This document shows, piece by piece, positions 1-40,170 of a stretch of 40,653 bases of DNA. This DNA comes from Candidatus Neomarinimicrobiota bacterium (GTDB taxonomy: Bacteria > Fidelibacterota > SORT01). Location of the stretch: assembly GCA_022573815.1 (NCBI GenBank), contig JACZTG010000019.1, forward strand, positions 1 to 40,653, written 5' to 3'. Position 1 is the stretch's first letter. Every line of letters starts with the position of its first letter. The notes under the pieces are model-generated. The model did no database searches. It was not told where the DNA came from and saw nothing but the letters and a program-made list of their open reading frames with translations. Both the position numbers and the translations under genes were made by a program.

Positions 1-2
1 TT

Positions 3-1646
3 GATATCTTCAAACAGAATATTGAAAACAAGGGAGCGAATTTCGACCATCTCTTTCGATTTAGTCCTGATGGAATGGCAACTCAATTCAAAGACAGCTG
101 GTCTATAGGTACAAGATGGTCAAGAATCTTGAGTGAAAATACTTTTTTTACTCTCAAGCTGCACCACTTTCAAAATACTACGAAAAGCTATGTTTTTGAA
201 AATCCATTGGATTCCGGATATTCTTCAGATGACAGACTGCGACAAAGAGGAAATTTTTCCTTTTACAGCGGTGGAACCGATATGAGAAACGATTGGCGAC
301 AAACAAGAACCAGTCTGCTAAAAGCGGATATTACAAGCCAAGTTTCCACTGTACATCAACTCAGGAGCGGCGTAGAAGTAAAAATTCACAGACTTAGTCT
401 TCATGATTTCAATGTAAGAAATAATGCCAGCAGCAGTTTTGAAAGTTACATTCCTGTTGCGGGAGGAACCAATAACCAGGCGTATATCCAAAAGCCAAAG
501 GAATTTTCAGCTTATCTTCAGGATAAAATAGAAATCGATTATCTTATAATTAACGGCGGTTTAAGGATCGATATTTTTGATCCGGCTGCTAATGTATTAC
601 TCGATTTTTCGAGACCGCAAATTCTCGATCCAAATGATTCAACATTGACCTTACCGAGACTCGGAGAAAAAGCCGATCAAAAAATTCAAGTTAGCCCAAG
701 ATTCGGAATCGCGTATCCTATAACGGACAGAGGAGTGATTCATATTTCCTACGGCCACTTCTTTCAAATTCCATCATTCGAATTTCTTTTCACAAACCCT
801 AATTTTTCTATAAATACTGAATCAGGAAGGGCATCGGTATTTGCGGAGCCTTTTGGAAATGCTGATCTTAAACCGCAAAAAACTATCTCTTATGAAATCG
901 GGTTACAGCAGCAGATAGCGGAAGATATCGCAATTGACATCACAGGCTATTATAAAGACATAAGGAATTTACTTGCCACTAAGATCGAGACAATCGCCAC
1001 AGGAGAGACTCATTCGGGTGTTTCTTATGGAAGATTTATCAACAGGGATTTTGGCAATGTACGTGGATTAATCTTTTCATTAGAGAAAAGGGCAAGCAAT
1101 AATATATCGGGAACGCTGGATTATACTTACCAGATTGCTAAAGGAAACGCTTCCGATCCGAAATCGGTGTTGATTGACAATCAATCAGATCCGCCCGTTC
1201 AAACAGAAAAAGAACTCGTTCCGCTTGATTGGGATCGGACGCAAAGTATGACATTGACAGTGTCATTAGGTCCACCAAAAAAATATCTTATAAGTATATT
1301 GGGCAAAATGGGAACGGGACTCCCATATACGCCGTCGTTTTTAGATCAAAGGACTGGTCTTGAAAACAGCGATAGAAGACCGATAACATTAAATTTTGAT
1401 ATTAACGCATTCAAGGTTATAAATTTAAGTGGACTTGATGTTACAATTTTCGTTAGAATATTTAATCTTTTTGATAGATTGAATGAAAGAGAAGTTTACA
1501 ATGATACAGGACGAGCGACATATACTCTCGAAGCTAACTTACCCGGAATTATCGGAGGTCTGAATACTAAAGAAGAATTTTTCAACCGTCCTGAATGGTA
1601 CAGCCCGCCCAGACAGGTAAACCTTGGGATTACTATAGACTTTTAA
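3..1646 (+). CDS. TonB-dependent outer-membrane receptor, C-terminal part (5' truncated by window)
   Basis: The reading frame is open from base 3, so the gene begins upstream of the window and about 547 codons of its C-terminal part remain. The first in-frame ATG at 75 is internal. The sequence is typical of the beta-barrel half of a TonB-dependent receptor: alternating short hydrophobic and aromatic strands (ISYGHFFQIPSFEFLF, ISYEIGLQQQIAEDIAIDIT, YTYQIAKGNA), a 'NPNF...NADLKPQKTISYEIGLQQ' type segment common to these receptors, an internal 'LFDRLNEREVYNDTGRATYT' segment, and a terminal aromatic residue (VNLGITIDF). Receptors of this kind import large ligands such as oligosaccharides, siderophores or cobalamin across the outer membrane using TonB energy. 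The plug domain is outside the window. The sugar importer downstream favours a glycan ligand, but that is inference. The next gene starts 22 bases after the stop. Confidence 0.85.
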   Translation, partial: DIFKQNIENKGANFDHLFRFSPDGMATQFKDSWSIGTRWSRILSENTFFTLKLHHFQNTTKSYVFENPLDSGYSSDDRLRQRGNFSFYSGGTDMRNDWRQTRTSLLKADITSQVSTVHQLRSGVEVKIHRLSLHDFNVRNNASSSFESYIPVAGGTNNQAYIQKPKEFSAYLQDKIEIDYLIINGGLRIDIFDPAANVLLDFSRPQILDPNDSTLTLPRLGEKADQKIQVSPRFGIAYPITDRGVIHISYGHFFQIPSFEFLFTNPNFSINTESGRASVFAEPFGNADLKPQKTISYEIGLQQQIAEDIAIDITGYYKDIRNLLATKIETIATGETHSGVSYGRFINRDFGNVRGLIFSLEKRASNNISGTLDYTYQIAKGNASDPKSVLIDNQSDPPVQTEKELVPLDWDRTQSMTLTVSLGPPKKYLISILGKMGTGLPYTPSFLDQRTGLENSDRRPITLNFDINAFKVINLSGLDVTIFVRIFNLFDRLNEREVYNDTGRATYTLEANLPGIIGGLNTKEEFFNRPEWYSPPRQVNLGITIDF

Positions 1647-1668
1647 AAATAATACCAATGTTCTTATT

Positions 1669-4600
1669 ATGAATATACCATTATATCACATATATAAAAT
1701 CCTTCCAATCCTGTTGATATTATCAATTGGTTTTACTACTTCATATGCTCAACGTCAACCTGACCCGAATAAGGGAGATGAAAAATTCACTCAATGGGGA
1801 ATTCTTGATGGTAATCGCGTCAGAACACTTTATTCGAATCATGGAGAAATTTCCCGCTGGCCCGATCAACCGTCAGGTGAATGGCCTAAAGGAACCGGGC
1901 ATTCTTACGTGGATGGCGTAGCAATAATCGTAAGCGCTGAGACTCAAAATAAATTCGGTCAGACTATCCATCCAATGTCTACCAATTATAGAGAATTTAT
2001 TGATACTGACCCTGTTACGGGAATAGCATGGGGTTGGGCTCCGGTAAGGGGATATTCCAACCCAAGGCAGGATTTTCCGGCAAGGAGCGACAATCCAAAT
2101 ACATGGCCCTCGTTCTGGCCTGATAAGATGTCGGACATGTCTGATCCCGGTTGGCCCGGAGTTTGGAATGGATTTTTTGGTAAGGGTATCACAAACGCGG
2201 ATGTTGAAACTTATTTTATTTCTGATGACAGTCCGGATAAGGAGTGGAGTACTGATCCGGCACATCTTTTTCATCCTGATCCTGATGATACTACAAGAGG
2301 TGGTTTGGGGCTGGAGATTTCAACAAGGGGATTCCAATGGTCGCATGTACTTGCCCAGGACGTTATCTTTTGGTTGTATGAAATAACTAACGAGGGTAAA
2401 GTAGATTACGAAGATGTATTTTTTGCTCAGTATATAGATTGGGGAGTGGGAGGTACTGATGATTCAGGCGATGACGAAGGAGCATATAATGTACTTTTAG
2501 ATATGGCATTTGCATGGGACTTTGATGGCTTAGGTTCGCCCGGAAAATGGGGACCTGTGGGAGTAGGAGGATATGCTTTTCTTGAAAGTCCGGGAAAATC
2601 TTCCGATCTAAAAGACAATGACGATGACGGTATTATAGATGAGAACAGAATAAATGAAGCCGGCGAGTTTTTAGATGTGTTTCCCTATGGTATTGATGAT
2701 CCAGTTGCGTTCGAATTATTTTATAAACGTCCTCCAACACCACATTTTTCGGGAGACGAGGACGATGATTGGGTTAATTTTACGGATATAAACAATTCCG
2801 GTATTTGGGATGATGGCGAACCTCTCAATGATGATGTCGGAACTGATGGTATCGGACCTTTTAGTACAATTTATATTGGACCCGATGCGGACGGAACCGA
2901 GGGAAACGGGATACCAAACCAGGGAGAACCTAACTTCGGAATTACTGATAAAGATGAATCAGATCAAATTGGTCTAACCGGGTTTAGTGTGTTTGCTGTC
3001 CATGACTTCGAGCTTCAAAATGACGAAGAAGACTGGAGTTTATTCAGCCGTACTCTATTACCAATAGCCAGTTTGGTTCTTGAAGGGGGAAGAAATCTCG
3101 GAATGTTTTTCTCATCTGGTAAATTTCCGCTGAAGGCAGGTCAGACGGAACGATTTTCGATGGCATTGCTGTTCGCCGAGAAAGATTTTATAAGTGTTCT
3201 TGATCAAAACCAAATTTTAAACTCTTCAATGGCTCGTAAAAAGGAGACTGTTCAGCAAATATATAACGCGGATTATCAATTTGCAAAACCGCCCGATAAA
3301 CCTGTACTTCGAGCCGTTCCGGGAGATGGAAGGGTTATCTTGCAGTGGGATGCTCTTGCAGAAGAATCTTTTGATCCATTTTTAAGAATAAAAGATTTCG
3401 AAGGATATCTGATTTATAAGAGCACTGAACCGACTTTCTTAGAAAATTTAACTATTACAAACACTTTTGGCGCGTTAACCTTTCAAAAACCAATTGCTCA
3501 ATTCGATTTGGACAACGGAATAAGAGGATTACATCCGGTAGATATCGAAGGAGTTAAATTCAACATCGGTATAGATAGCGGCCTAAGACATTTCTTTGTG
3601 GATACTGATGTGATAAACGGCAGGACATATTATTATGCAATTGTTTCCTATGATAGAGGGTTAGTTGCTACGGATACGTCAGGTACAATAATTACAGACA
3701 GTCAAGGTAATGTGAAAGGATTAGCGCCTTCATTTTCCACGTCCATAATACAGAGCGACATTTCGGGAAATATAACATCTGATGTAAATACGGCAGCAGT
3801 AACCCCCAGGTCACCATCAGCAGGATTTATTCTACCGGAAATCAATGGCGAAATCATTTATTCTGGGCCCGGAACTGGAGCTATTTCTGTTGATATTTTA
3901 TTCAACGAAGTAATCAAAGACAATCATACTTATGAAATAAAATTCACTAATGAAGGCGCACATCTTAATAGTACCAGACCATCGTATACTCTGACTGATA
4001 TAACTTCAAATTCAGTTCTTCAATCAGCTGTTGAAATTAATATTGACGGTCAGGAAGTGGATTTGTTTGACGGGTTAGCCGTACAAATATTCAACGACAG
4101 TATTGTAACCTTGATTGATACAGCCACTAAATGGCTTGGTAATCCGACAACCAACCTACTTGTCACTGTCAAAAAACCGCATAACGAGGAGTTTGTATCA
4201 AAGCTATTTAATGAAATTAACGGGAAAAGTATTCCATATCCGGCGGATTATGAGATTATATTCGATAATGTAGATATAGATACTTCTCACTCGTGGGGTT
4301 TAGGCAGGTTACCGATGCCGCTTCCTTTTAAGATCTGGAATACAACAGAAGAGAAATGGGAAAAAATCGGTATTGTAGAAACAGTCAAGAATGGAACAAT
4401 CAACAGGACATGGGATTGGGATGAGTCAGTGCTTATTATGGGTGGGGATAGCGCACATTTGGAACCGGAGTTCAGGCAGGGTAACGCATATTGGGTTATC
4501 CGGTTTTTTGATCCTGAAGATTCTACGGTCACTCCGATTCTACCGGGACCCGGGGACGTATATCAAATTAAAACCAAAAAGCCGTTCAGAACCGGAGAGA

Positions 4601-4968
4601 CTGTGGAGTTTACCGTAAATTCAGGAAAATTTACTACTGAACAAACACAATTTGATATGGATAGAATCGCTGTAGTACCAAATCCTTACGTCGGGACGTC
4701 AGTATTTGAACCGCCGAACATTTATAAATCAGGAAGAGGAGAGAGAAGAATTTGGTTTATACATCTTCCGGCAGAATGTACAATAAGGATTTATAATATA
4801 AGAGGTTACCTAATTGAAACTCTACGTCATAACGGAGCCTCTGATGACGGGGAAGAAATATGGGATTTGACCTCGAAAGATGGAATGAATGTGGCTTACG
4901 GTCTGTATATCTACCATATCGAATCACCGCTTGGCGAAAAGGTAGGAGAATTTGCGTTAATTAAATGA
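1669..4968 (+). CDS. Large secreted surface protein with Asp-rich repeats, Fn3-like and FlgD-like C-terminal domain
   Basis: The protein has 1099 residues and an N-terminal signal peptide (hydrophobic residues about 10-25, cleavage near SYAQ). Residues about 300-430 are rich in D/N-G-D motifs (DNDDDGIIDE, DEDDDWVNF, DADGTEGNG) resembling calcium-binding repeats. Residues about 540-690 (PDKPVLRAVPGDGRVILQWD onward) look like a fibronectin type III-like module. The last 90 residues match the FlgD-Ig or type IX-secretion-like tail: 'VVPNPYVG', 'IRIYNIRGYLIETL', 'AYGLYIYHIES', ending in 'GEFALIK'. Such tails are widespread in FCB-group surface proteins. It lies between a TonB receptor and a PorV-like protein, and PorV proteins deliver or anchor such secreted proteins. 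Glycan binding is a guess from position. No catalytic motif was recognised. It overlaps the next gene by 4 bases (ATGA). Confidence 0.75.
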   Translation: MNIPLYHIYKILPILLILSIGFTTSYAQRQPDPNKGDEKFTQWGILDGNRVRTLYSNHGEISRWPDQPSGEWPKGTGHSYVDGVAIIVSAETQNKFGQTIHPMSTNYREFIDTDPVTGIAWGWAPVRGYSNPRQDFPARSDNPNTWPSFWPDKMSDMSDPGWPGVWNGFFGKGITNADVETYFISDDSPDKEWSTDPAHLFHPDPDDTTRGGLGLEISTRGFQWSHVLAQDVIFWLYEITNEGKVDYEDVFFAQYIDWGVGGTDDSGDDEGAYNVLLDMAFAWDFDGLGSPGKWGPVGVGGYAFLESPGKSSDLKDNDDDGIIDENRINEAGEFLDVFPYGIDDPVAFELFYKRPPTPHFSGDEDDDWVNFTDINNSGIWDDGEPLNDDVGTDGIGPFSTIYIGPDADGTEGNGIPNQGEPNFGITDKDESDQIGLTGFSVFAVHDFELQNDEEDWSLFSRTLLPIASLVLEGGRNLGMFFSSGKFPLKAGQTERFSMALLFAEKDFISVLDQNQILNSSMARKKETVQQIYNADYQFAKPPDKPVLRAVPGDGRVILQWDALAEESFDPFLRIKDFEGYLIYKSTEPTFLENLTITNTFGALTFQKPIAQFDLDNGIRGLHPVDIEGVKFNIGIDSGLRHFFVDTDVINGRTYYYAIVSYDRGLVATDTSGTIITDSQGNVKGLAPSFSTSIIQSDISGNITSDVNTAAVTPRSPSAGFILPEINGEIIYSGPGTGAISVDILFNEVIKDNHTYEIKFTNEGAHLNSTRPSYTLTDITSNSVLQSAVEINIDGQEVDLFDGLAVQIFNDSIVTLIDTATKWLGNPTTNLLVTVKKPHNEEFVSKLFNEINGKSIPYPADYEIIFDNVDIDTSHSWGLGRLPMPLPFKIWNTTEEKWEKIGIVETVKNGTINRTWDWDESVLIMGGDSAHLEPEFRQGNAYWVIRFFDPEDSTVTPILPGPGDVYQIKTKKPFRTGETVEFTVNSGKFTTEQTQFDMDRIAVVPNPYVGTSVFEPPNIYKSGRGERRIWFIHLPAECTIRIYNIRGYLIETLRHNGASDDGEEIWDLTSKDGMNVAYGLYIYHIESPLGEKVGEFALIK

Positions 4969-6005
4969 CAATATTTAAATTCAGAAAAATCTTACTACCG
5001 TTGCTCATCTTAGTGAATGGTCATGCATATGGTCAAAATTTTGTGGAGAACGTGTCTAAGGTGGGGATATCAGCTGCGCCGTTTCTCTCCATTCCTGTCG
5101 GTCCGAGAGCGAACTCACTTGGGGGCGCATTTGTTGCAGTGGCAGATGACGCGTCCAGCATCTATTGGAATCCCGCGGGTATTTCAAGACTAAACGGGAA
5201 CGAGTTTATAATCACGCATACACAATGGATTGGCAATGTAAGCCACGATTTTGGCGGAATTGTAATTGCGCTGGGATCCGGTGGAGCCATAGGGCTGAGC
5301 GTTATTTCAGTCAGCACTGACGAGATGGAGGTCCGAACAGAATTTGAGCCGGAAGGAACCGGCGAATTTTTCAATGTTAGCGATCTTGCATTCGGCGCAA
5401 CCTATGCTAAGAATTTGACTGATCGGTTTTCGATTGGTTTTACCGGAAAATATATTTTCCAGAAAATTTGGCACTCTCAGGCTCAAGGTTTGGCATTTGA
5501 TTTCGGAACTTTATTTAAAACCGATTTATTCAACGGTCTCAAAATCGGCGCTGTTATTACCAACTTTGGACCTGATCTTTCAATCGACGGACGTGACCTT
5601 CGCTATTTCTTGGACCCTGATCCAAATGCTCTTGGAAATAACGAACGGATACCGGCGCGAGTGGAAACAGATCCTTGGCCATTGCCGCTGAATTTTCAAT
5701 TTGGGATATCTACGTATGCATTCAGCAATGAGACATCTCAACTGATAGTTTCTCTTGATGCGTTACATCCCAGCGATAATTTTGAATTTGTAAATATCGG
5801 TATCGAGTATGTTCTAAATGAAACGATATTCCTACGGGGAGGCTATAAAGGTTTGTTTCTTAAAGACAGTGAAGAAGGCTTGGCATTTGGAGCGGGAGTT
5901 AATTTTGCGTCAACTAACGGAACAAAATTACGAGCTGATTATTCTTTTCAGGACTTTGGCAGGCTCTCCAATATAAACACATTTGCTTTATCGATCTTCT
6001 TCTAA
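4965..6005 (+). CDS. PorV/PorQ (UPF0164) family outer-membrane protein
   Basis: The protein has 346 residues with a signal peptide ending near HAYGQ. The mature N-terminus carries the family hallmark 'GPRANSLGGAFVAVADDASS' followed by IYWNPAGISRL. This is the FadL-like PorV/PorQ/UPF0164 signature (a small 'A.GGA..A.ADDA.A.YWNPAG' block). The remainder is predicted beta-barrel with glycine and aromatic strand patterns and ends in FALSIFF, a terminal aromatic residue as expected for BAM insertion. In Bacteroidota PorV works with the type IX secretion system. Here the gene directly follows, and is translationally coupled to, the large FlgD-tailed protein. That supports a shared export or surface-attachment role, which is inference because no other secretion genes are in the window. 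Confidence 0.8.
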   Translation: MTIFKFRKILLPLLILVNGHAYGQNFVENVSKVGISAAPFLSIPVGPRANSLGGAFVAVADDASSIYWNPAGISRLNGNEFIITHTQWIGNVSHDFGGIVIALGSGGAIGLSVISVSTDEMEVRTEFEPEGTGEFFNVSDLAFGATYAKNLTDRFSIGFTGKYIFQKIWHSQAQGLAFDFGTLFKTDLFNGLKIGAVITNFGPDLSIDGRDLRYFLDPDPNALGNNERIPARVETDPWPLPLNFQFGISTYAFSNETSQLIVSLDALHPSDNFEFVNIGIEYVLNETIFLRGGYKGLFLKDSEEGLAFGAGVNFASTNGTKLRADYSFQDFGRLSNINTFALSIFF

Positions 6006-7322
6006 GTGGTTCGCTTTCAATCGATTTTTAAAAAAGTTTTCCTTGTCACATCATTTTTATTTCAAATATTTTTTATCTCCTGTTCAAAAAATCCGTCTGA
6101 AAGAGCGGAGAAATATTTAACTTATTGGTCTGCCGCGAATCAGCAAGAGATAGACCTTGCTGCAATAGTAGTGGAGAAATGGAATTTACTGCATCCTGAA
6201 TTCCCTGTTCGAACGGAGCCTATAGCTTCCGGACAATCCAGCGAAGAGGTTTTATTGGCGGCCATTGCCGGCAGAACTACACCGGATATTTGTTCTAATA
6301 TATGGCCCGGAGTCTTAGAGCAGTATGTAGAAGCACAAGTAGTTGTTCTGCTGGACACGATGCCGGGATTCGACAGTTTAATTACATCGCGAATACCTGA
6401 TAGACTTGTTTCCGGGTATGCTTCTTCTGATGGAAAATATTATCAAATTCCATGGAAATCTAATCCTGTACTCTTCATTTATAACACAAATTATTTTGAT
6501 GTTTTGGATATAAAAAAAGTTCCGACCACTTATAAGGAATTTGATAATATTTCCAGAAAAGTATTAGAACTATCAAAAACCGGTGAATCGCCTATTAAAT
6601 GGATGCACTACAGGAACGTATTGCCCATATGGTGGCAACGGTTATTTGATTTCTATCCTTTTTATATAGCCGCTTCAGGAGGGAAAACTCTCTTAAAAGA
6701 CGGTAAAGTCGATTTTGACAATGACAGCGCAGTAAAAGTTTTTGAATTCTTCGCCTCAGGATATCGAGAAGGTTTCGTTTCTAAATCGATCCTGCAGATG
6801 GAAGATCTGTTTATTAAGGAAAAAGTATTGGCGGATATAGTCGGACCCTGGAGAGTTTCACATCTGGCAAAATTCGCCCCTCATATAAATTATAAGTATG
6901 GACCGCTGCCAAGACCGGATGATGTGACAGGCCCACCGCTAACATATGCCGACCCTAAGTCCATCGTTATCTTCAAAACTGCTCCGTATCCGGAAATGGC
7001 ATGGGAATTTGTAAAGTTCATGGTTTCTGAAGAGAGCGATAGGTTACTTTTGGAGATTGCTACCCAATTGCCCATTAGAAAGAATCTGTTAGAAAACGAA
7101 ACATTCGATGAATTTTTCGAGAAGAATCCTGAGCTGACATTATTTGCTGAACAAGTAACATATGCAGTTGGTGTGGACAAAACGATATACTTACAAGAAA
7201 TATTCGATATAATCAGCCAGGAATTTGAAGCTGCCTGTATCCATCATGTTAAAACACCGAGTAAAGGTATAAAGGACGCTGCTAAACGAGTACGACTTCT
7301 TCTTGCAAGAGACCGGACATGA
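6006..7322 (+). CDS. ABC sugar transporter substrate-binding lipoprotein
   Basis: The protein has 438 residues and starts at GTG immediately after the preceding TAA stop, with no clear Shine-Dalgarno, so expression is probably coupled. Residues 1-26 form a lipoprotein signal (hydrophobic stretch, lipobox FISC, Cys26). The mature protein is a family 1 solute-binding protein of the MalE/UgpB type: 'LTYWSAANQQEIDLAAIVVEKWN', 'IWPGVLEQYVEA', 'SNPVLFIYNTNYFDV', 'DIVGPWRVSHLAKFAP', 'YADPKSIVIFKTAPYPEMAWEFVKFM'. It would capture a sugar in the periplasm for the two permeases that follow. The stop overlaps the permease start by 4 bases (ATGA). The ligand cannot be read from the sequence. The neighbouring GH130 suggests a manno-oligosaccharide or other beta-linked glycan. 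Confidence 0.88.
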   Translation: MVRFQSIFKKVFLVTSFLFQIFFISCSKNPSERAEKYLTYWSAANQQEIDLAAIVVEKWNLLHPEFPVRTEPIASGQSSEEVLLAAIAGRTTPDICSNIWPGVLEQYVEAQVVVLLDTMPGFDSLITSRIPDRLVSGYASSDGKYYQIPWKSNPVLFIYNTNYFDVLDIKKVPTTYKEFDNISRKVLELSKTGESPIKWMHYRNVLPIWWQRLFDFYPFYIAASGGKTLLKDGKVDFDNDSAVKVFEFFASGYREGFVSKSILQMEDLFIKEKVLADIVGPWRVSHLAKFAPHINYKYGPLPRPDDVTGPPLTYADPKSIVIFKTAPYPEMAWEFVKFMVSEESDRLLLEIATQLPIRKNLLENETFDEFFEKNPELTLFAEQVTYAVGVDKTIYLQEIFDIISQEFEAACIHHVKTPSKGIKDAAKRVRLLLARDRT

Positions 7323-14945: not shown

Positions 14946-14954
14946 AGGAAGGAG
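14946..14954 (+). promoter_or_regulatory. Ribosome binding site that places the MATE start at ATT 14960
   Basis: AGGAAGGAG is a strong Shine-Dalgarno. The next in-frame codon at proper spacing (5 bases) is ATT at 14960. The nearest conventional in-frame start, TTG at 14978, is 23 bases away and would begin inside the conserved 'KLTEG' N-terminus. The ATG at 14970 is in another frame and stops after three codons. Confidence 0.6.
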
Positions 14955-14959
14955 CGATC

Positions 14960-16321
14960 ATTCAAAATAATGCGAAATTGACTGAGGGGAATGTTGGCGG
15001 GCAGATAATAAGAATGGCGTTACCGATGTTTTTCGGGATCTTCGGAATGATCGCATTTAACCTGATTGACATCTATTTCATCGGACAACTTGGCACGCTG
15101 GAACTTGCAGCCGTCAGTTTCACTTTTCCTGTGGTATTCATAATAGGAAGCGTGGCGCTTGGACTCGGTATAGGTACCACAACATTAATATCCCGCGCAA
15201 TCGGCGAAGGTAACTCTGAACAAGTCAAACGTATTACAACAGACAGTCTTGTACTTTCCGTGATTATTGTCGGTAGTGTGATTGGCATTGGTTTGATCTC
15301 GATGGATAGTGTTTTTACTATGATGGGAGCAAGCGGTGAGGAGCTCTTGCTAATAAGGGATTATATGACATTTATTTATCCCGGCGCACTATTTGTTGTC
15401 ATACCAATGGTAGGTAATGGCGCTATCAGGGCAACGGGCGATATGAAAACACCGGCTATGATAATGGGCGTTGCGGTATTAGTAAATCTGATTCTTGATC
15501 CCATTTTAATATTCGGATTCGGTCCGTTTCCACGGTTAGAGCTCACCGGGGCGGCAATAGCTACTGTTATTTCACGGGCGATTACATTTGTCGTTTCGTT
15601 ATCTGTTTTACATTACAGGGAACATATGCTTGCATTCACAATTCCGGATATAAAAGAAGTATGGGAGTCATGGAAGAGTATTTTATACATAGGAATAGCA
15701 ACTGCCGGCACACAGGCAGTATATCCGATAGGCATGGGTTTCATATATCGGATTATATCTACCTATGGGCATGGAGCAGTAGCTGCGTTTGGTGTGGCAA
15801 CAAGGATCGAAGCATTAGCTTTAGTAATGATGATGGCGCTATCAAGCGCTATTAATCCCTTTATCGGTCAGAATCTTGGTGCACAAAAATTTGAGAGAGT
15901 AAAAGAAGGAATCATATATGTAAATCGATTCGCGCTTAAATGGGGGATTGTCGCAGCGGTTATTCTTGCGTTGGTGGCTAAACCGTTTGCTTCAGTCTTG
16001 CACGCCGATGCAGAGGTTATATCAATCGTAAGTCTGTTTCTATGGATAGTCCCTATCAGTTATGGACTTTATGGAATTATGATGATTGCAAATTCGAGTC
16101 TAAACGTTTTGCATAGACCGCTTCATGCTACTGCCATCGCCTTTATTCAAATGTTCGTTATGTTTATTCCACTTGCTTTTATAGGTTCAGAGCTCATAGG
16201 AATAAAAGGCATATTTGGAGCATCGATGATTTCGAAGACAGTTGCAGGAATTGGAGCATATTATTGGCTCAAAAGAGCGATTAAAAATGATATTACAGAA
16301 AAATACAAAGTTTCACATTGA
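14960..16321 (+). CDS. MATE family multidrug/cation efflux protein, apparent ATT start
   Basis: About 453 residues from ATT 14960 (447 if TTG 14978 is used). The N-terminus 'NNAKLTEGNVGGQIIRMALP' matches the usual MATE opening 'LTEGPI...LALPM'. About twelve hydrophobic segments follow in two homologous halves, with MATE blocks 'NLIDIYFIGQLGTLELAAVS', 'GNGAIRATGDMKTPAMIMG', 'NLILDPILIFGFGPFPRLEL' and 'NPFIGQNLGAQKFERVKEG'. MATE proteins export drugs or metabolites in exchange for Na+ or H+ across the inner membrane. It stands alone between the sugar ATPase and the haem operon, after a hairpin-rich leader region, and its substrate is unknown. The start codon choice rests on the Shine-Dalgarno at 14946-14954. 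Confidence 0.9.
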   Translation: MQNNAKLTEGNVGGQIIRMALPMFFGIFGMIAFNLIDIYFIGQLGTLELAAVSFTFPVVFIIGSVALGLGIGTTTLISRAIGEGNSEQVKRITTDSLVLSVIIVGSVIGIGLISMDSVFTMMGASGEELLLIRDYMTFIYPGALFVVIPMVGNGAIRATGDMKTPAMIMGVAVLVNLILDPILIFGFGPFPRLELTGAAIATVISRAITFVVSLSVLHYREHMLAFTIPDIKEVWESWKSILYIGIATAGTQAVYPIGMGFIYRIISTYGHGAVAAFGVATRIEALALVMMMALSSAINPFIGQNLGAQKFERVKEGIIYVNRFALKWGIVAAVILALVAKPFASVLHADAEVISIVSLFLWIVPISYGLYGIMMIANSSLNVLHRPLHATAIAFIQMFVMFIPLAFIGSELIGIKGIFGASMISKTVAGIGAYYWLKRAIKNDITEKYKVSH

Positions 16322-16459: not shown

Positions 16460-16479
16460 CGTATTATAAGGAGAAGAAT

Positions 16480-16491
16480 ATGAATTCGTAA
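16480..16491 (+). other. Minimal leader ORF (Met-Asn-Ser) ahead of hemA
   Basis: AAGGAGAAG at 16468-16476 is the best Shine-Dalgarno in the hemA leader. It is followed four bases later by ATG AAT TCG TAA, a three-codon frame. It is downstream of the -24/-12 element and about 75 bases before hemA, which itself lacks a strong ribosome site. Translation of the leader may influence hemA expression; this is inference. It could also be the relic of an older start. Confidence 0.4.
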
Positions 16492-16564
16492 TTTGGATAA
16501 GGGCTAAAATAATAATTAATGGAATTTGTAAGAAGATTTATTTGATAAAAACTTGGATTAAAAT

Positions 16565-17836
16565 ATCATAAACAATCTAACACTCCTCGGTTCTGATTAT
16601 GGTCACGCTCCAATTGGCGAATTAGAAAAATTATCCGCTTCGGATAAATTTATAGATCAAATATATACTGAGCTTACTGAATCTTACAATATAGATGAAG
16701 TCATTATACTCTCGACATGTAATCGATTCGAAATTTATATAATATCTCAGGAAATTGATATTGAGAATAATGTCTCGAATTATATTCTAAAGCTGACCGG
16801 AACAGCCCTACTTAAAAACAAACAGACTAATTATGTGATAAAAGGGGAAGATGCGGTAAATCATCTGTTTGAAGTTTCTGCGGGATTGAAATCACAAATA
16901 ATCGGTGAACCTGAAATACTCGGTCAAGTTAAGACAGCGCTCCGAAATTCAAGGGATCATAAATCAACAGGACCATTTCTTTTAAAATTATTTGAATCGG
17001 CGATCAAAACGGGTAAGAGAGTTAGAACAAAAACCAGTATCGGCAAAGGGAATGCTTCCTATGGATCTGCCGCACTTGCTAAAGCATCAGAAATTATCGG
17101 ATCACTTCGCGGTAAAAAAATATTATTATTAGGCACCGGCAAAATCGGTATAACAGTATCGAAATATTTAAGTTCTTTAAAACTCAAGTCATTCTACATC
17201 GCCAGCAGAGACAAAAGCAGGGCAAAATCTTTAACTGAAGTGTATGGCGGTATTCCCATCTCTTTCGATCAGGTAAATGATTTAATTCCTGAAGTTGACT
17301 GCCTGATATCAGCTACCAATGCTGATGCACAAATAATTACACGTCATAAACTCGAGAAATTAAAAAGATTTAGCTCGCAGAAAGTATTTATCGATCTGGG
17401 AATGCCTCGAAATATTGATCACGATATAGATAATATTAAAAATGTCCACCTGTTCAATATTTCAGATTTAAATGAATCAATACAGAGATCTATCAAACTA
17501 CGGAAACAGTCGATTCCAAGAGCGAAAGAGATTATAATGAATGAAAAAAAATCATTCAGCAGATGGCATCGTAAATATATGGAAAGCGATATTTCAAAAT
17601 CCCTAATCAATCATTTTAATATTGTAAAGGAAGAATTACTTGCTGTTAGCAGTAATAAAATGAGTGAAAAAGAATTTGTCCAAGTTGATAAGTTCACATC
17701 GTTGCTGGTAAATCGACTTCTCCATCAGCCTTTGAGATATTTGAAAAACGGTGATGGGCCACATCGTGAGATGCTCCTTAAGGACGGCGTTCTTAATAAG
17801 CTATTTGGAATTCAGGATCAAATTAATGGTAAATAA
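16565..17836 (+). CDS. hemA: Glutamyl-tRNA reductase, apparent non-AUG start (ATC/ATA)
   Basis: The enzyme reduces glutamyl-tRNA(Glu) to glutamate-1-semialdehyde with NADPH, the first step of the C5 haem pathway. The frame is open from 16562. The homologous N-terminus (NNLTLLGSDYGHAPIGELEK) starts at once, with ATC 16565 or ATA 16568 the only plausible starts. The first GTG, at 16835, would remove the catalytic cysteine. About 423 residues, normal for the family. Landmarks are catalytic Cys52 in STCNRFEIY, 'SAGLKSQIIGEPEILGQVK', the nucleotide-binding 'KKILLLGTGKIGITVSKYL', 'LISATNADAQIITRHKL', 'FIDLGMPRNIDHDI', and a C-terminal dimerisation helix region. It overlaps hemC by 11 bases. First gene of the nine-gene haem operon. 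Confidence 0.92.
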   Translation: MINNLTLLGSDYGHAPIGELEKLSASDKFIDQIYTELTESYNIDEVIILSTCNRFEIYIISQEIDIENNVSNYILKLTGTALLKNKQTNYVIKGEDAVNHLFEVSAGLKSQIIGEPEILGQVKTALRNSRDHKSTGPFLLKLFESAIKTGKRVRTKTSIGKGNASYGSAALAKASEIIGSLRGKKILLLGTGKIGITVSKYLSSLKLKSFYIASRDKSRAKSLTEVYGGIPISFDQVNDLIPEVDCLISATNADAQIITRHKLEKLKRFSSQKVFIDLGMPRNIDHDIDNIKNVHLFNISDLNESIQRSIKLRKQSIPRAKEIIMNEKKSFSRWHRKYMESDISKSLINHFNIVKEELLAVSSNKMSEKEFVQVDKFTSLLVNRLLHQPLRYLKNGDGPHREMLLKDGVLNKLFGIQDQINGK

Positions 17837-27617: not shown

Positions 27618-27690
27618 AATAGAGATTTCGATTTCCTTTGACAGCTAGTCTTATATAGGGTAAATTCTCCGGTAGTATTATTACGATCTT

Positions 27691-27702
27691 AGGCAAGGGG
27701 GA
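27691..27702 (+). promoter_or_regulatory. Strong ribosome binding site that places the radical SAM start at ATC 27706
   Basis: AGGCAAGGGGGA at 27691-27702 is a strong Shine-Dalgarno. Three to four bases later the reading frame continues ATC AAG AGA TCT ATC GGA, in frame with the CxxxCxxC motif. No ATG, GTG or TTG occurs between the upstream stop (27673) and the cysteine motif. Confidence 0.6.
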
Positions 27703-27705
27703 ACA

Positions 27706-28596
27706 ATCAAGAGATCTATCGGAATATTCGATATCAGCAGTCGATGTCCGCTTAGGTGCACTCACTGTTATTATTATACCAATATAACGGAAATTCCAAC
27801 GGAACTGTCTGATGAAATATACCTGAAAAAGATTAAACAGGTCAGGAACCGATACGGGATACAATCTGCCTTCTGGGTAGGCGGTGAGCCGTTATTGCGG
27901 TTAAGTCTATTAAGACGAGCTATAAATTTATTTCCGAGAAACGCAATCGTAACTTCAGGGGTTTTACCAATTCCCGGAGATCTAAACGCCTCAATTTTAA
28001 TTTCAATTGACGGTTCCGAAGCGATCCATGACTCAATACGCGGCAATGGTTCCTTCGCAAAAGTCATGCGAAACGTAAAAAGAATACCACCCAAATCTTT
28101 CGCGATTTTCAGTGTCCTCACAGCTGATGCGATAGAACAGATTAAAGCATTTCCAGAGCTCGTGAATCGTGCAAACGCTCTGGGAATATTAGTTGGCTTC
28201 CAAGTGTCGGGGCAGAAATTCTCATCGCCATTAAGCTCTGATTTACGAGAAAGGGCAGTGGATCTGCTTCTTCAACTTAAGGCAACGATTCCGGGCGTAT
28301 TACTTAATAGCGAGAGATCGATCGAACTTTTCAGACCATGCCATCAAAAAACGGTAGCGATGAATTGTATTTACAAAAGTTCGGCAATTTCATTCGATGT
28401 TCGGCTAAAGGTTAAAAAACCGTGTACTTTTGAGGGAAACGCGGATTGCAGTTCATGCGGATGTCCGATGGTAATGATACATGAGGCTAAAATGGGCGGA
28501 GATAGAGAGAGTGTTAACTTATTACACGCATTATTTCCGAAGCGAAACAGCTACAATATCGAAACTTTTGTTCAGCATGGTATTTCCCAGCAGTGA
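27706..28596 (+). CDS. Radical SAM protein with C-terminal Cys-rich region, apparent ATC start
   Basis: About 296 residues from ATC 27706 (Met-Lys-Arg-Ser-Ile-Gly-Ile-Phe). The first conventional start, TTG 27895, would remove the [4Fe-4S] motif CPLRCTHC (Cys14, 18, 21), so the upstream start must be used. The SAM-binding 'FWVGGEPLLR' follows at about residue 61. 'LNASILISIDGSEAIHDSIR' and 'HDSIRG' resemble the radical SAM peptide/cofactor group. Near residues 240-260 a cluster 'CTFEGNADCSSCGCP' could hold a second iron-sulphur cluster or metal. Function is not recognisable. It follows the CopD-like gene after 88 bases and precedes the benzoyl-CoA operon, so a tie to haem modification or cofactor assembly is only a guess. 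Confidence 0.82.
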   Translation: MKRSIGIFDISSRCPLRCTHCYYYTNITEIPTELSDEIYLKKIKQVRNRYGIQSAFWVGGEPLLRLSLLRRAINLFPRNAIVTSGVLPIPGDLNASILISIDGSEAIHDSIRGNGSFAKVMRNVKRIPPKSFAIFSVLTADAIEQIKAFPELVNRANALGILVGFQVSGQKFSSPLSSDLRERAVDLLLQLKATIPGVLLNSERSIELFRPCHQKTVAMNCIYKSSAISFDVRLKVKKPCTFEGNADCSSCGCPMVMIHEAKMGGDRESVNLLHALFPKRNSYNIETFVQHGISQQ

Positions 28597-28814: not shown

Positions 28815-29969
28815 ATGAATTTTGACACCATAATTGCTGAGTGCCGCAAGTCGTTAGAACGCCCGTATCAGAATATCAACAAGTGGAAGAAAAAAAGCAC
28901 CACAGGGCTTGCAGTGGGTACTTTTCCTGTTTATACACCATGGGAGATCATTGATGGTTGCGGTATGTTCCCAATAGGGATATTTGGAGGCGGTTCCGAT
29001 GTAGAAATAGAATATGCAGATTCACTTATTCAGTCATTTATCTGTTCAATAGCACGGAGTACTCTTGAAGTGGGGCTCAAGGGAGTTCTGAAAGATGTAG
29101 ATGCTATGGTTTTCCCTTCGATATGTGATGTTTCAAAAAATTTAAGCGGGATTTGGGAAAGGAATTTTCCGGATCACCAAGTAGAATTCATACATCTGCC
29201 GCAGAATATGTATTCAGAAAGTGCAGTTGATTATCTGATTCACGAATATAAACGTCTTGCTGATAATTTGTGCGCAATGAACGGTTCATCACCGAAGGAA
29301 GATTCAATTCTCGAATCGATCTCCGTATACAATAAGAATAGGGCTAAGCTTCGAGAACTTTATGATTTGAGAAATAATGAACCTTGGAAGTTATCTACAG
29401 TGGAGTTGTATATAATAATTCGATACGGCACGCTCGTTCCCCAATCAGTTTTCTCGGATACTCTTGACAAGTTGCTGGATTCCATAGCCGTGAGAGATAA
29501 GGGAGAAAGAGACAGCGTAAGAGTCATATTAGAGGGTTCGTTTTGTGAACAACCGCCTCTGGATATGCTCCACCTTCTTGAAGAGGCCGGCTGTTATATT
29601 GTAGACGATGACTTGCTAATCGGATATCGTTGGTTTATGGAAGATGTTTCAACAGAAGGCTCTCCCTATCGGAATCTTGCTGAAGCGTATATCAATAAGA
29701 GCTATCCGTCTTCAGTCAGACATGACGGAAATCGCTCGAGAAGTGACCATTTATTGAAGAAAGTTAAAAATACAAATGCTGCAGGAGTGTTGTTTTGCGC
29801 CGCAAAGTTCTGCGAACCGGCGCTATTTGATTATGTACTGTTAAAGAACGCACTCGAAACAAAGGATATACCGTACCTATCATTCGAATTTGAAGAAAAA
29901 ATGGGAGTATTTGAATCAATTAAGACTCAGGTAGAAACATTTGTGGAATCGATACTTTTCTTTTCATAA
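28815..29969 (+). CDS. bcrC: Benzoyl-CoA reductase (class I, ATP-dependent), subunit C (BcrC/BzdN type)
   Basis: 384 residues, the length of BcrC/BzdN. It belongs to the 2-hydroxyacyl-CoA dehydratase D-component family, which binds iron-sulphur clusters and the substrate. Signature stretches are 'GTFPVYTPWEIIDGCGMFPI' , 'GIFGGGSDVEIEYADSLIQS', 'FICSIARSTLEVGLKGVL', 'ICDVSKNLSGIWERNFPDHQ', 'GSFCEQPPLDMLHLLEEAGC' and 'LFCAAKFCEPALFDYVLLKN', with several conserved Cys. The holoenzyme reduces benzoyl-CoA to cyclohexa-1,5-diene-1-carbonyl-CoA using ferredoxin electrons and ATP. It is the first gene after the -24/-12 element and runs into the B subunit with a one-base TAATG overlap. Related 2-hydroxyacyl-CoA dehydratases are the main alternative, but the oah/had genes downstream favour benzoyl-CoA. 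Confidence 0.88.
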   Translation: MNFDTIIAECRKSLERPYQNINKWKKKSTTGLAVGTFPVYTPWEIIDGCGMFPIGIFGGGSDVEIEYADSLIQSFICSIARSTLEVGLKGVLKDVDAMVFPSICDVSKNLSGIWERNFPDHQVEFIHLPQNMYSESAVDYLIHEYKRLADNLCAMNGSSPKEDSILESISVYNKNRAKLRELYDLRNNEPWKLSTVELYIIIRYGTLVPQSVFSDTLDKLLDSIAVRDKGERDSVRVILEGSFCEQPPLDMLHLLEEAGCYIVDDDLLIGYRWFMEDVSTEGSPYRNLAEAYINKSYPSSVRHDGNRSRSDHLLKKVKNTNAAGVLFCAAKFCEPALFDYVLLKNALETKDIPYLSFEFEEKMGVFESIKTQVETFVESILFFS

Positions 29970-31222
29970 TGGAAGAAGCTAAATATAAATATCAGGGTGT
30001 TGCCCGGACTTATCAACGTAAGTTACTTGATGACTGGTATTCGGGGATATCTTCTGCGAAAGAAAACAATGAAAAGGTCGCATATCTATTCATAAGCGGA
30101 AATATCGCAGAGCTTTTGAGGGTATTCGATTTTCATCTTGTCTATCCGGAAGTTAACGCTCTCCAATGTGGAGTGAAAAAAGTTGCCGGCGATTTCATCA
30201 TGAAAGCGGAAGATATTGGATATTCTTCTGATGTATGCGGATATGTGAAAAATGATATCGGGCTTTTGATGTCCGGCAATATAGGTCCGTTCGGAAAGAT
30301 TTCTCCTCCTGATCTGCTTGTATGTACGTATTCGGGATGTATGACATATGTGAAGTGGTTCGAGGCGTTAGCAAAAGCTTACGGAACCGAACTATTCATG
30401 TTGGATATCCCGTTTTTGAGAGAAGGAAAACCCACCAAAGGTGATATGAAATATATTCGTTCGCAACTTGAAGAACTCATCGAGGTATGCGAGCGGAAGA
30501 CTGGTATACAATATGATGAAGACAAGTTGAAAGAGATTCTCGGAAATTCCGTAAAGGCCGAAGATCTTTGGGTAAACATACTACAGTCAGCGAAACATGA
30601 ACCATCTCCCTTTGATGCTTTTTTTGAAGCGGTCTTTTTTATGGCTCCCATTTATGTGCTCAGAGGAACCGAAGAATGCGTCGAATATTACCAGAAGGCA
30701 AAATTAGAAATTGAAGAACGAATACAACATAAAACGGGTCCTATCCCGGAGGAAAAATTCCGTATCGTAATGGAAGGACCTCCTCCATGGCCCCATTTCA
30801 GAAGCTTTTGGGAGTTATTCAAAAAGTGGGATGTATGCGCAGTTGCATCCACCTATTCAAAGGTCGGCGGCATTTGGGATTTCGGATTCAGGCATGATCC
30901 GACGCGACCTCTCGAAAGTATAGCCGAATACGCAACTAATTGCTATACCAACTATAACTGGAAAATGCGTTCTAAAATGATAAAAAGTTATATTGATGAT
31001 TACAATGCGGATGCTCTTGTCATTCATTCGGTAAAAAGTTGCCGGGCATTTTCCGTTGGTCAGGCGGATGCGAGAGAGCGGTTTATACGGGAATATAATA
31101 TTCCAACGCTCTTCATCGAATCGGATCTCGCGGACCCAAGATACTTTTCAGAAGCACAGATGCGAAATCGGATTGATGCGTTTTTTGAATCTCTCGAACA
31201 TAGAAGGTTAGTGGGAGGTTGA
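29969..31222 (+). CDS. bcrB: Benzoyl-CoA reductase (class I, ATP-dependent), subunit B (BcrB/BzdO type)
   Basis: 417 residues, in the range for BcrB/BzdO. Same dehydratase D-component family as the upstream subunit, its partner in the active-site heterodimer. Features are 'HLVYPEVNALQCGVKKVAGD', 'GYSSDVCGYVKNDIG', 'LVCTYSGCMTYVKWFEALAK', 'FMLDIPFLREGKPTKGDMKY', 'VMEGPPPWPHFRSFWELFKK', 'YATNCYTNYNWKMRSKMIKS' and 'IHSVKSCRAFSVGQADARE', the last with the cluster Cys region seen in this family. It begins on the last base of subunit C's stop and is followed after 10 bases by the ATPase module. Confidence 0.88.
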   Translation: MEEAKYKYQGVARTYQRKLLDDWYSGISSAKENNEKVAYLFISGNIAELLRVFDFHLVYPEVNALQCGVKKVAGDFIMKAEDIGYSSDVCGYVKNDIGLLMSGNIGPFGKISPPDLLVCTYSGCMTYVKWFEALAKAYGTELFMLDIPFLREGKPTKGDMKYIRSQLEELIEVCERKTGIQYDEDKLKEILGNSVKAEDLWVNILQSAKHEPSPFDAFFEAVFFMAPIYVLRGTEECVEYYQKAKLEIEERIQHKTGPIPEEKFRIVMEGPPPWPHFRSFWELFKKWDVCAVASTYSKVGGIWDFGFRHDPTRPLESIAEYATNCYTNYNWKMRSKMIKSYIDDYNADALVIHSVKSCRAFSVGQADARERFIREYNIPTLFIESDLADPRYFSEAQMRNRIDAFFESLEHRRLVGG

Positions 31223-31232
31223 GGAATATACA

Positions 31233-32027
31233 ATGATAGTAGCCGGAGTAGATGTAGGTTCCACCGCGACAAAATCTATTCTCATGAATGAAAACGGGGA
31301 AATTATCGCGCGTGGATTGACAAATACGGGAGCGAACGTTGTTAAGGCGGCTGAGAGAGTATTCAATCAAGCGCTGAAAATGGCTGATGTGGAAGAGTGG
31401 GACATTGCCTACACAGTTGGGACTGGATACGGTCGTTTTCGTGTGCCGTTTGGAGATACGCAAATTACAGAGATCAGTTGCCATGCAAAAGGAGCTCATT
31501 ATCTCCATCCGAAAACTCGAACTATTTTAGACATTGGCGGCCAGGATACAAAAGCAATTAAAGTTGGTCCAAAAGGTGAAGTAATTGATTTCTGTATGAA
31601 CGATAAATGCGCTGCAGGAACCGGACGGTTTCTTGAAGCCGCTGCAAAAGTAATGGACATCACCCTGGATGACTTAGGAGTTATATCCCTTAAATCGAAA
31701 AAGCCGTTGAGGATTACAAACGTTTGTACTGTCTTTGTTGAATCGGAAATAATTTCGCATCTTGCCTGGGGTAAAAAACCGGAAGATATACTTAGTGGTG
31801 TTCACAATTCGATATCGGGAAGAAGCTCTTCTTTACTACGGCGAGTTGGAGTGGAATCTGAGCTCACGTTTACCGGCGGCGTGTCAAGAAATATAGGAAT
31901 GGTAGCGGCGCTAAAAAAGAAATTAAAAATAAAAATTAATGCTACTGAAGATTCCCAGTATATCGGAGCAATCGGGGCAGCTCTTTTCGCTCTTGAACGG
32001 GCATCAAATAAATCGGTTACGGCCTAA
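31233..32027 (+). CDS. bcrA: Benzoyl-CoA reductase ATPase/electron-activating subunit 1 (BadF/BcrA family)
   Basis: 264 residues, with Shine-Dalgarno GGAGGTTGAGGA upstream. It is an ASKHA-fold activator ('archerase') that drives electrons to the reductase with ATP. Phosphate motifs are 'GVDVGSTATKSILM' (residues 5-18) and 'ILDIGGQDTKAIKVG', with 'TGGVSRNIGM' further on. Cys126 in 'NDKCAAGTGRFLE' and Cys165 in 'NVCTVFVESE' sit where HgdC carries its two cluster-ligating cysteines (Cys127 and Cys166), which bridge a [4Fe-4S] between two monomers. Short size resembles the Azoarcus BzdP/BzdQ type rather than the long Thauera BcrA; the order C-B-ATPase-ATPase also matches bzdNOPQ. The subunit lettering used here is provisional. 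Confidence 0.85.
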   Translation: MIVAGVDVGSTATKSILMNENGEIIARGLTNTGANVVKAAERVFNQALKMADVEEWDIAYTVGTGYGRFRVPFGDTQITEISCHAKGAHYLHPKTRTILDIGGQDTKAIKVGPKGEVIDFCMNDKCAAGTGRFLEAAAKVMDITLDDLGVISLKSKKPLRITNVCTVFVESEIISHLAWGKKPEDILSGVHNSISGRSSSLLRRVGVESELTFTGGVSRNIGMVAALKKKLKIKINATEDSQYIGAIGAALFALERASNKSVTA

Positions 32028-32030
32028 TAT

Positions 32031-32831
32031 ATGAAATTCATCGGAGGAATAGACGTTGGTTCGAGAGTGACAAAAGCGGTCGTGATTGACAATAAAAGAA
32101 AGATACTCGGTAGAGGAACCACAATGACGGGGGCATATTTATCTCAAGCGGCAGAGACCGCATTGAATAAAGCGTGTCAAATTGAAAGCATAAAATTTGA
32201 TGATATAGAATATATAGCCAGCACAGGTTTCGGGAGGTATCAGGTTCCTTTCAGACATATTCAGATCACCGATATCACAAGTAATGCGTTCGGCGCATTG
32301 TATATCTTTCCCAAAACCCGTTGTATTATTGATATAGGCGCAATGAACGCGCGCGCCATGAAAATCAACGAAGAGGGAAGAGTCTTAAAATTCCGTATGA
32401 ACGATAAATGCGCATCGGGCGCAGGCCGATTTTTGGAAAGAGTCGCGCTTGCGCTTGAACTTGAGTTAGACGAAATAGGAAGTATCTCTCTTGGTTCGAA
32501 AAATCCACAGACTATCAGCAACATCTGCGCTGTACTGGCTGAATCCGAAGTTATTAATCTCGTGACCAAGGGTGTGGACGTAGAAGATATTGTTCAAGGC
32601 GCCCACAAATCGATTAGCGATAGGATTGTGGCGTTGCTACGGCAGGTAGGTATAGAAAATGAGATCACTCTTACAGGCGGGGTGACGAAGAATGTCGGGA
32701 TGATAAAAGCTCTTGAGGAAAAACTTGAAGCGCCGCTAAACGTTAGCACGGACTCGGAATTTGCCGGAGCGATAGGGGCAGCACTGTTAGGCATAATGCG
32801 ACTTGAAAAGAAAACCCTTGCTGAAAATTAA
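32031..32831 (+). CDS. bcrD: Benzoyl-CoA reductase ATPase/electron-activating subunit 2 (BadG/BcrD family)
   Basis: 266 residues, starting four bases after subunit 1. A paralogue of the preceding gene along its whole length. Retained motifs are 'GGIDVGSRVTKAVVID', 'NDKCASGAGRFLERVA' (Cys127), 'NICAVLAESEVINL' (Cys166) and 'LTGGVTKNVGMIKALE'. The two cysteines are at the same positions as the HgdC cluster ligands, so a heterodimer with subunit 1 can still share one [4Fe-4S]. It differs in the second phosphate motif, which reads 'DIGAMNARAMKI' instead of 'DIGGQDTKAIKV'. That change may alter nucleotide handling (inference). Subunit lettering is provisional. Confidence 0.83.
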   Translation: MKFIGGIDVGSRVTKAVVIDNKRKILGRGTTMTGAYLSQAAETALNKACQIESIKFDDIEYIASTGFGRYQVPFRHIQITDITSNAFGALYIFPKTRCIIDIGAMNARAMKINEEGRVLKFRMNDKCASGAGRFLERVALALELELDEIGSISLGSKNPQTISNICAVLAESEVINLVTKGVDVEDIVQGAHKSISDRIVALLRQVGIENEITLTGGVTKNVGMIKALEEKLEAPLNVSTDSEFAGAIGAALLGIMRLEKKTLAEN

Positions 32832-38538: not shown

Positions 38539-40170
38539 ATGATCAATTATTATATAACTAAATATTCTATACTCATTATAGCAATAGTAGGATTTGTTCA
38601 ATTAACATGCGCACAACCCGATAAATCAATAAATTTAACGACTGTCAAATCCGGAGAACTCCCAAGAAGTTTGAGCCCTTTGAATCAGACGGAATCGTCA
38701 CCGGAATTATTAGCATCAGGTAAAATTCTATACGATAAGAGGTGCGCGCCTTGCCATGGATTGGATGGAGCAGGAGAGGGCAAAGCAGCCTACTTATTAT
38801 ATCCTAAACCGAGAGATTTTGTATCAGCCCGATATCGGATAGTCTCCACATGGGAGAGAATTCCAACGGATAACGATATATTCGGCGTTGTTTCGAGAGG
38901 AATTCCGGGTTCTTCGATGCCTTCGTGGGCGCATTTATCAGAAATTGAGAGATGGAGTCTTGTTCATTATATCAAAACTTTCGCAGATAATCCGATAGAG
39001 CCGAACACGGCTATAGGTGACAGCGGAGTGGGGCTATTAGAAATTTCTCCTATAGCCGAATATACGCCGGCGGCGGAACAATTGGCGTTTGAACGGTTTC
39101 GAGACGCGTGTGCTACATGTCACGGAGCTACTGGTGAAGGAGATGGAGTCTCTGAGCAAATTGATGAAAAAGGAATGCCTACACGGCCGCGAGACCTTAC
39201 TATGGGCGTGTTCAAGGGAAATCCTGATCCGGAGGAGGTATATCGCAGAATAATATTGGGGATGCCCGGAACACCAATGCCGATGAGCGACTGGGCTTAC
39301 GGAGATGATGCATGGCATCTTACAAATTACGTCCTCGGAATGTCAACGAAACTGAAACGTGATAGGGCGGAAATGAAAAAATTCAGGATTGTAGCGAATA
39401 GAGTGCAAAAGATTCCTGAGCATCCTGATGCTGGTATTTGGAGGGAAGCGGGAACTGTTAACATCCATATGATGCCGCTTTGGTGGAGGGTTGACAGACC
39501 GGAAATATTGACCGTACAGGCTCTTCATGACGGCAGAGAACTGGCACTCAGATTAACCTGGACGGATGCTACCGATGATCATACTGCGATTCGAGTACAG
39601 GATTTCCGTGATGCAGCTGCCATCGAATTCTCAAGTGAAAACGATCCTCCATTTTTCGGAATGGGTGAAAAAAACCAAACTGTAAGTATCTGGATGTGGA
39701 AATCAGAGCGGCAGGCCGATCTAGAACCCGCATTCCAGGATATAGATAAAATGTATCCGAACTTAGGAATCGACTCATATCCCAATCTTATGAAATCCGC
39801 ATTGGAACAGCCGGCACGCAACGCACTGACGCTTGAGTCTGATCCTGATTTCATAACCGGATGGGGAGCGGGAAATATAGTATCGGATCCGACGAGAAAA
39901 TCTGCTGTTGAAAATCTCACAGCGAAGGGATTCGGTACGCTCAAGGCACGGCCCAGGATTGAGCAATACGTAAAATCATTTGGTATATACGATATCGGAA
40001 CGTATAGAGTTGTGTTCAGAAGGTCTTTGAAGGGAGAGGGTCAAAATAGTTTGGATTTTGTTCCTGGACAGCATCTTTCCGTGGCTTTCTCCGTTTGGAA
40101 TGGAAGCGCCGGTGACAGGGATGGTAAAAAATCGGTGACAATCTGGCAGGAATTGATAATTGCTCCTTAA
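38539..40170 (+). CDS. Di-haem cytochrome c fused to an ethylbenzene-dehydrogenase-type haem-binding domain
   Basis: 543 residues with an N-terminal signal peptide (cleavage near TCA-QP). Two cytochrome c modules follow: CAPCH (69-73) with axial Met in 'PGSSMPSWAHLSE', and CATCH (191-195) with 'PGTPMPMSDWAYGDDAW'. From about residue 300 the protein continues as a beta-rich EB_dh-type domain ('VNIHMMPLWWRV', 'LALRLTWTDATDDHTAIRVQ', 'FRDAAAIEFSSENDPPFFGM', 'VSIWMWKSERQADLEP', 'YRVVFRRSLKGEGQ', 'SVAFSVWNGSAGDRDGKKSV'). That domain is the gamma (haem) subunit of type II DMSO reductases such as ethylbenzene, chlorate, selenate or dimethylsulphide enzymes. As the molybdoenzyme follows after 59 bases, it is probably its periplasmic electron-transfer partner. 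Confidence 0.85.
   Translation: MINYYITKYSILIIAIVGFVQLTCAQPDKSINLTTVKSGELPRSLSPLNQTESSPELLASGKILYDKRCAPCHGLDGAGEGKAAYLLYPKPRDFVSARYRIVSTWERIPTDNDIFGVVSRGIPGSSMPSWAHLSEIERWSLVHYIKTFADNPIEPNTAIGDSGVGLLEISPIAEYTPAAEQLAFERFRDACATCHGATGEGDGVSEQIDEKGMPTRPRDLTMGVFKGNPDPEEVYRRIILGMPGTPMPMSDWAYGDDAWHLTNYVLGMSTKLKRDRAEMKKFRIVANRVQKIPEHPDAGIWREAGTVNIHMMPLWWRVDRPEILTVQALHDGRELALRLTWTDATDDHTAIRVQDFRDAAAIEFSSENDPPFFGMGEKNQTVSIWMWKSERQADLEPAFQDIDKMYPNLGIDSYPNLMKSALEQPARNALTLESDPDFITGWGAGNIVSDPTRKSAVENLTAKGFGTLKARPRIEQYVKSFGIYDIGTYRVVFRRSLKGEGQNSLDFVPGQHLSVAFSVWNGSAGDRDGKKSVTIWQELIIAP

Follow-up and report, generated by a model that had tools for sequence, protein, structure and literature searches.

Introduction

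To our knowledge, ATA, ATT and ATC (ATH in DNA, AUH in mRNA) start only a handful of genes in most bacteria, and normal gene finders, which assume ATG, GTG or TTG (NTG in what follows), ignore them. The closest described system is infC, where an AUU, AUC or AUA codon behind a strong Shine-Dalgarno (SD) sequence goes with autoregulation by initiation factor IF3. The AUU/AUC of infC and the GTC of Streptomyces sigR are both under IF3 control (PMC5472188). In Staphylococcus aureus, retapamulin profiling found infC (AUA), cvfC1 (AUU), ccpN (AUA) and citZ (AUA), all with extended SDs, and reporters with AUA or AUU gave about 10-30% of the output of AUG (PMC13009471). ATG, GTG and TTG interchange at orthologous prokaryotic starts over evolution; of 61,358 ancestral AUG starts, only two became CUG and one AUU (PMC5622118). 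In experiments in vitro, IF3 accepts nothing but Watson-Crick pairs at codon positions 1 and 2 and excludes weak pairs at the third base (PMC10158994).

The stretch of DNA analysed here (the window) is a contig of 40,653 nucleotides (JACZTG010000019.1; C19 of genome G000) from a draft genome of Candidatus Neomarinimicrobiota bacterium (GCA_022573815.1), and carries a radical SAM gene whose putative start codon is ATC. The gene shares with infC the AUH codon behind a strong SD, and the infC of G000 itself has such a codon; however, infC is a single self-regulating gene, whereas the codons described here stand before unrelated metabolic, transport and cell-surface genes. It likewise resembles sigR, whose non-canonical codon follows an extended SD, is conserved across species and was missed by annotation, but sigR is a single regulator whose control function is known and was demonstrated experimentally (PMC5472188), whereas the present starts are predicted from sequence. 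The four sites of S. aureus are those of a whole genome (PMC13009471), whereas our estimate for this family is 4% of testable genes. NTG codons interchange at orthologous starts here as elsewhere, but replacements by AUH or CUG, rare in the survey of start-codon switching (PMC5622118), are frequent in this family. A literature search on Marinimicrobia and start codons returned nothing relevant. From these precedents the mechanism is thus a known one, while its scale within one family appears to be new. Taking the three parts together, we consider it probable that the radical SAM gene initiates at ATC, that it belongs to a family-wide pattern of AUH starts, and that start-codon discrimination is relaxed in this lineage.

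Results

The radical SAM gene and its start

The features of the locus, all on the forward strand, are as follows:

27638-27666, +, sigma-70-like promoter of the radical SAM gene (predicted), TTGACA-17-TAAATT, 10 of 12 consensus bases
27676-28596, +, open frame of the radical SAM gene, stop to stop, preceded by the stop codon TAG at 27673-27675
27695-27702, +, Shine-Dalgarno-like AAGGGGGA; duplex with ACCUCCUUA, -9.9 kcal/mol
27706-27708, +, putative start codon ATC, conserved in the sister genus; protein identity begins at this codon
27706-28596, +, radical SAM protein of 296 residues counted from ATC; PF04055; 75% identity to the ortholog in the sister genus
27745-27768, +, iron-sulphur motif CPLRCTHC (CX3CX2C), 5' of every canonical start codon

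Between the preceding stop and TTG 27895 the frame contains no ATG, GTG or TTG. This TTG, its first canonical codon, lies 3' of the iron-sulphur motif, so that a mechanical ORF finder begins there and loses the motif. An initial annotation had proposed exactly this, namely a frame without any canonical codon ahead of its cysteines, truncated by automatic gene finders and opened by ATC behind a strong SD; the first two points are borne out and the third is supported. The sequence AGGCAAGGGGGA at 27691-27702 includes a run of five Gs (27697-27701), and the ATC follows 4 nt past the last of these. An SD energy of -9.9 kcal/mol or better is found at only 42 of 13,300 random ATH triplets (0.3%) in the sampled part of G000, and is stronger than the best-decile value for the best NTG starts (-8.7 kcal/mol). 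RNA structure around the start is nothing unusual (z -0.34), and no Rfam families were found in the window.

The match to the Pfam domain Radical_SAM (PF04055; E=3e-13) begins at residue 20 of the open frame and, together with the CX3CX2C motif, places the protein in the radical SAM superfamily. Like the SPASM proteins of the NirJ/AhbC/ScmE type it combines the CX3CX2C radical SAM core with C-terminal cysteines, but it scores far below all NCBIfam cut-offs (at best 57.9 of 400); membership in the SPASM/NirJ/Ahb subfamilies is thus not supported, and the function of the protein is left without assignment. Its best solved relative by sequence is SkfB (E=2e-6). Elsewhere in the window, an operon at 28815-32831 encodes two HGD-D proteins and two of BadF/BcrAD type, which resemble benzoyl-CoA reductase/dehydratase, with SDR and other genes downstream of them, and 38539-40170 encodes an ethylbenzene-dehydrogenase-like cytochrome.

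Among close relatives, an ortholog was found only in G002 (Candidatus Neomarinimicrobiota bacterium B25T3L8, JACZYG010000001, a metagenome assembly of a sister genus); a search of three more genomes of the family, two of them incomplete, did not find one. The two genes differ by 41, 37 and 102 changes at codon positions 1, 2 and 3 (275 codons), and this dominance of third-position changes indicates a working gene under purifying selection. G002 keeps the ATC AAG, the G-run (GGGGGAAC) and the promoter, which reads TTGAAA-17-TAACTT at the aligned place; sites with at least 9 matches to the promoter consensus arise by chance at about 3.5 per 1.4 kb. Since the predicted promoter ends at 27666, the mRNA would start near 27673, giving a leader of some 33 nt, and an SD thus could not fit before position 27681. 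A second copy of the gene in G000, on contig C50 (L091), is not a paralog: positions 1-6639 of that contig are 99.3% identical to G002:C1:6724-13362, and since this is a match to a contig from a different genus, C50 is probably misbinned.

G002 has an additional in-frame ATG, without an SD, nine codons upstream of the ATC, where the window reads ACG (27681-27683), and for this reason ATC 27706 is our best reading of the start rather than a certain one. The gene might instead start at the position of this ATG, the window then containing either an assembly error of one base in the G-run or a true, damaging frameshift. Such a combination of a one-base indel and a change from ATG to ACG is possible because the ATG is in frame in G002, which reads MILETGGEPIKRSIG, and because two distant homologs (L112, L113; 45-47% identity) have 9-12 residues ahead of the shared N-terminal block; a G-run longer by one base would give (ACG)ILGKGGTIKRSIG in the window, which matches well, and homopolymers are error-prone. 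The added residues of the distant homologs do not, however, decide the matter, and we hold an ATG-position start to be unlikely: it needs two changes, the ATG of G002 lies only about 15 nt from the probable mRNA start, in both genomes the G-run looks like an SD, and other genes of the lineage have AUH starts with no indel. From the ATG position to the ATC, moreover, the window is 4 nt shorter than G002 and the frame is lost; with this net indel the stretch behaves as non-coding. The two distant homologs come from Myxococcales and Proteobacteria MAGs, which suggests lateral transfer of the gene.

Two further genes of the window

Non-AUG starts had also been proposed for a MATE transporter gene and for hemA:

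14949-14962, +, start region of the MATE gene: AAGGAG at 14949-14954, then ATC 14957 or, better spaced, ATT 14960
16568-16570, +, candidate start codon ATA of hemA, aligned with TTG in G002 and ATG in G004

For MATE this holds: the first NTG is TTG 14978, within the conserved KLTEG, the SD energy at the AUH codon is -8.0 kcal/mol, and a GCG of the window is aligned with GTG in G002 and G004. For hemA the proposal holds too. No canonical codon occurs for 89 conserved residues, and the GlutR_N domain (PF05201) matches the frame from profile position 2 at residue 10, upstream of the first NTG, but ATA 16568 lacks a good SD in G000 (-3.1 kcal/mol), and none is obvious in G002 or G004. About 75 nt upstream of hemA, at 16468-16493, a strong SD (AAGGAG) precedes a mini-ORF of three codons, ATG AAT TCG TAA, possibly a leader peptide or the remnant of an older start.

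AUH starts at genome scale

The comparison covers 780 kb of G000 and 757 kb of G002, about a third of each genome, and 176 pairs of orthologs for which the upstream stop is visible in both members. Most of the genomes compared are fragmented drafts; overlap artefacts were removed by hand. Among the candidates so rejected are hemL, ruvB, alcohol dehydrogenase and HGD-D, the upstream stretch there being the tail of the gene before, in a different frame. In 11 of the 176 G000 genes no NTG precedes the conserved N-terminus: hemA, radical SAM, asparaginase II, an M28-type peptidase, gcvH, MATE, infC, and HdrC-like, deacetylase, glutaredoxin-like and unnamed genes (one each). About seven of these have a convincing AUH codon (4% of the 176, or roughly one gene in 25) and three do not; the HdrC-like gene has CTG in G000 against TTG in G002, and the deacetylase is missing a good SD. 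Genes of this kind in G002 are hemG (CTG), hemE, gcvH (ATC) and a porin-like gene (ATA), whose start is ambiguous in three other family members because a GTG sits inside the SD region. In hemE of G002 (L173, G002:C66, near 10036), GCG stands where G000 has ATG, and no NTG occurs for 24 conserved residues. The suggestion that AUH starts are a habit of the lineage is thus supported beyond the three genes of the window, by gcvH, asparaginase II, the M28-type peptidase, the porin-like gene and possibly others.

The AUH codons are associated with SDs. Alongside the values given above for radical SAM, MATE and hemA, energies are -9.3 kcal/mol before infC and -8.3 kcal/mol before gcvH. Over 15 genes from the two genera, the best ATH SD energies add up to -86.6 kcal/mol, and in 10 of the genes the value is -5.5 or better; 3 of 30,856 codon triples (ATG, GTG and TTG left out, ATH included) reach this level, and among the 589 count-matched triples ATH alone does. 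The scan for strong SDs with ATH before conserved N-termini that the initial annotation had called for yielded more AUH genes, but its conservation-blind version, a search for orphan SDs, found no excess of ATH (7/63 against 10/105 positions); sites were few, and SD-like sequences within genes added much noise. We discarded an unsupervised start-site model that covered all 61 codons, because A-rich codons near starts dominated it.

In a control pair from another family of the phylum (G018/G008), a small and close set of 44 pairs, infC is the only such gene. Of 33 concordant starts in this pair, 27 are ATG-ATG and one is TTG-TTG; the 120 concordant starts of the present family comprise 73 ATG-ATG, 20 TTG-TTG and 5 GTG-GTG, so TTG starts are unusually common in it. 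This bears on the possibility that AUH starts are mainly a by-product of translational coupling, in which re-initiation near an upstream stop tolerates a weak codon and nothing is relaxed in general. Asparaginase, gcvH, M28 and the deacetylase do start a few codons past an in-frame stop. Nevertheless we give this account little credence, since the radical SAM and MATE genes come after intergenic gaps, strong SDs accompany the AUH codons, and the frequency of UUG starts argues for a general effect rather than for coupling.

Exchange of start codons between genera

The pattern of codons at orthologous starts also argues for general AUH initiation. The start of gcvH is ATC in G000 and G002 and ATA in G001, with no in-frame NTG in any of them. 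Asparaginase II, in which the Pfam domain begins about 53 residues ahead of the first NTG, has ATA in G000, ATC in G001, CTG in G003 and G004, and CTG or an upstream TTG in G002; outside the family it has GTG (G010) or an SD with ATG (G007). In the M28 peptidase, ATA is aligned with ATG in G002 and with TTG in G001, G003 and G004. In these genes, as in radical SAM with its ATC in both genera, the AUH codons are either conserved or swapped only among start-capable codons, an exchange that would be hard to get from errors or decay.

It is accordingly very improbable that the pattern reflects sequence errors and decaying genes, even in drafts of many contigs, one of them probably misbinned: errors would not hit the same codon in three genera, as in gcvH, nor stay start-capable, nor track SDs, the reading frames are intact, and purifying selection acts on the radical SAM gene. 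Translation of the latter from TTG 27895 can scarcely be credited, since although this codon is the first canonical one and has an SD-like energy of -7.0, the shorter protein would lack the cluster-binding cysteines and lose, with CX3CX2C, 63 residues ranking among the best conserved, both in the two genomes and in the distant homologs.

Discussion

The initial annotation had named infC and the initiator tRNA as points to check. infC has an AUH start in G000 and, across the phylum, in the majority of relatives examined. In the infC of G001 (L077), the codon that is in frame at the ideal distance from AAGGAG reads TCG and an ATT lies one base out of frame, so that either the sequence is in error or the start is stranger still. 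The initiator tRNA is ordinary, with a CAT anticodon and the three G-C pairs of a GGG/CCC stem, as in relatives, and the 16S rRNA of G000 ends in the normal tail GGATCACCTCCTTT (CCTCCTTT), with CCTCC; an altered initiator tRNA or anti-SD is thus ruled out as the cause. The IF3 of the family (L071, L072, L075, L077, L078) differs at two sites from most other members of the phylum that were compared, in which these sites are conserved; in E. coli sequence and numbering, the changes would be approximately Q33 to A and G121 to K.

Under the preferred reading, initiator tRNA-fMet would start the radical SAM gene at ATC 27706, paired with the first two codon bases and mismatched at the third, and the strong, closely spaced SD on a short leader would compensate for the weak codon. 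The gene would be one instance of a family-wide pattern in this Neomarinimicrobiota lineage, in which AUA, AUU and AUC (and CUG) may start about 4% of testable genes, interchanging over evolution with ATG, GTG and TTG. The open frames, their conservation, the exchange of codons and the association with SDs are observed; from them we infer that the AUH codons initiate, that fMet is the first residue and that IF3 has a part in it, and any regulatory role would be a further inference. The likely cause would be a relaxed start-codon discrimination in IF3 or the 30S subunit, as with the AUU of infC but family-wide, because initiator tRNA and anti-SD are ordinary; and as AUH keeps the first two codon-anticodon pairs, a less strict IF3 would admit just the AUH set. 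For the wider proposition, that the whole family is loosened, with AUA, AUU, AUC and CUG routine in several percent of its genes and an altered IF3 or 30S subunit as the likely cause, we find the scales evenly balanced.

If this holds, gene finders would truncate or lose a few percent of the proteins of this family, including active-site residues, as in radical SAM and hemA. The family would offer a natural system in which the usual proofreading of start codons by IF3 is relaxed or tuned, and it would become testable which changes in IF3 or the ribosome permit AUH initiation and how SD strength compensates.
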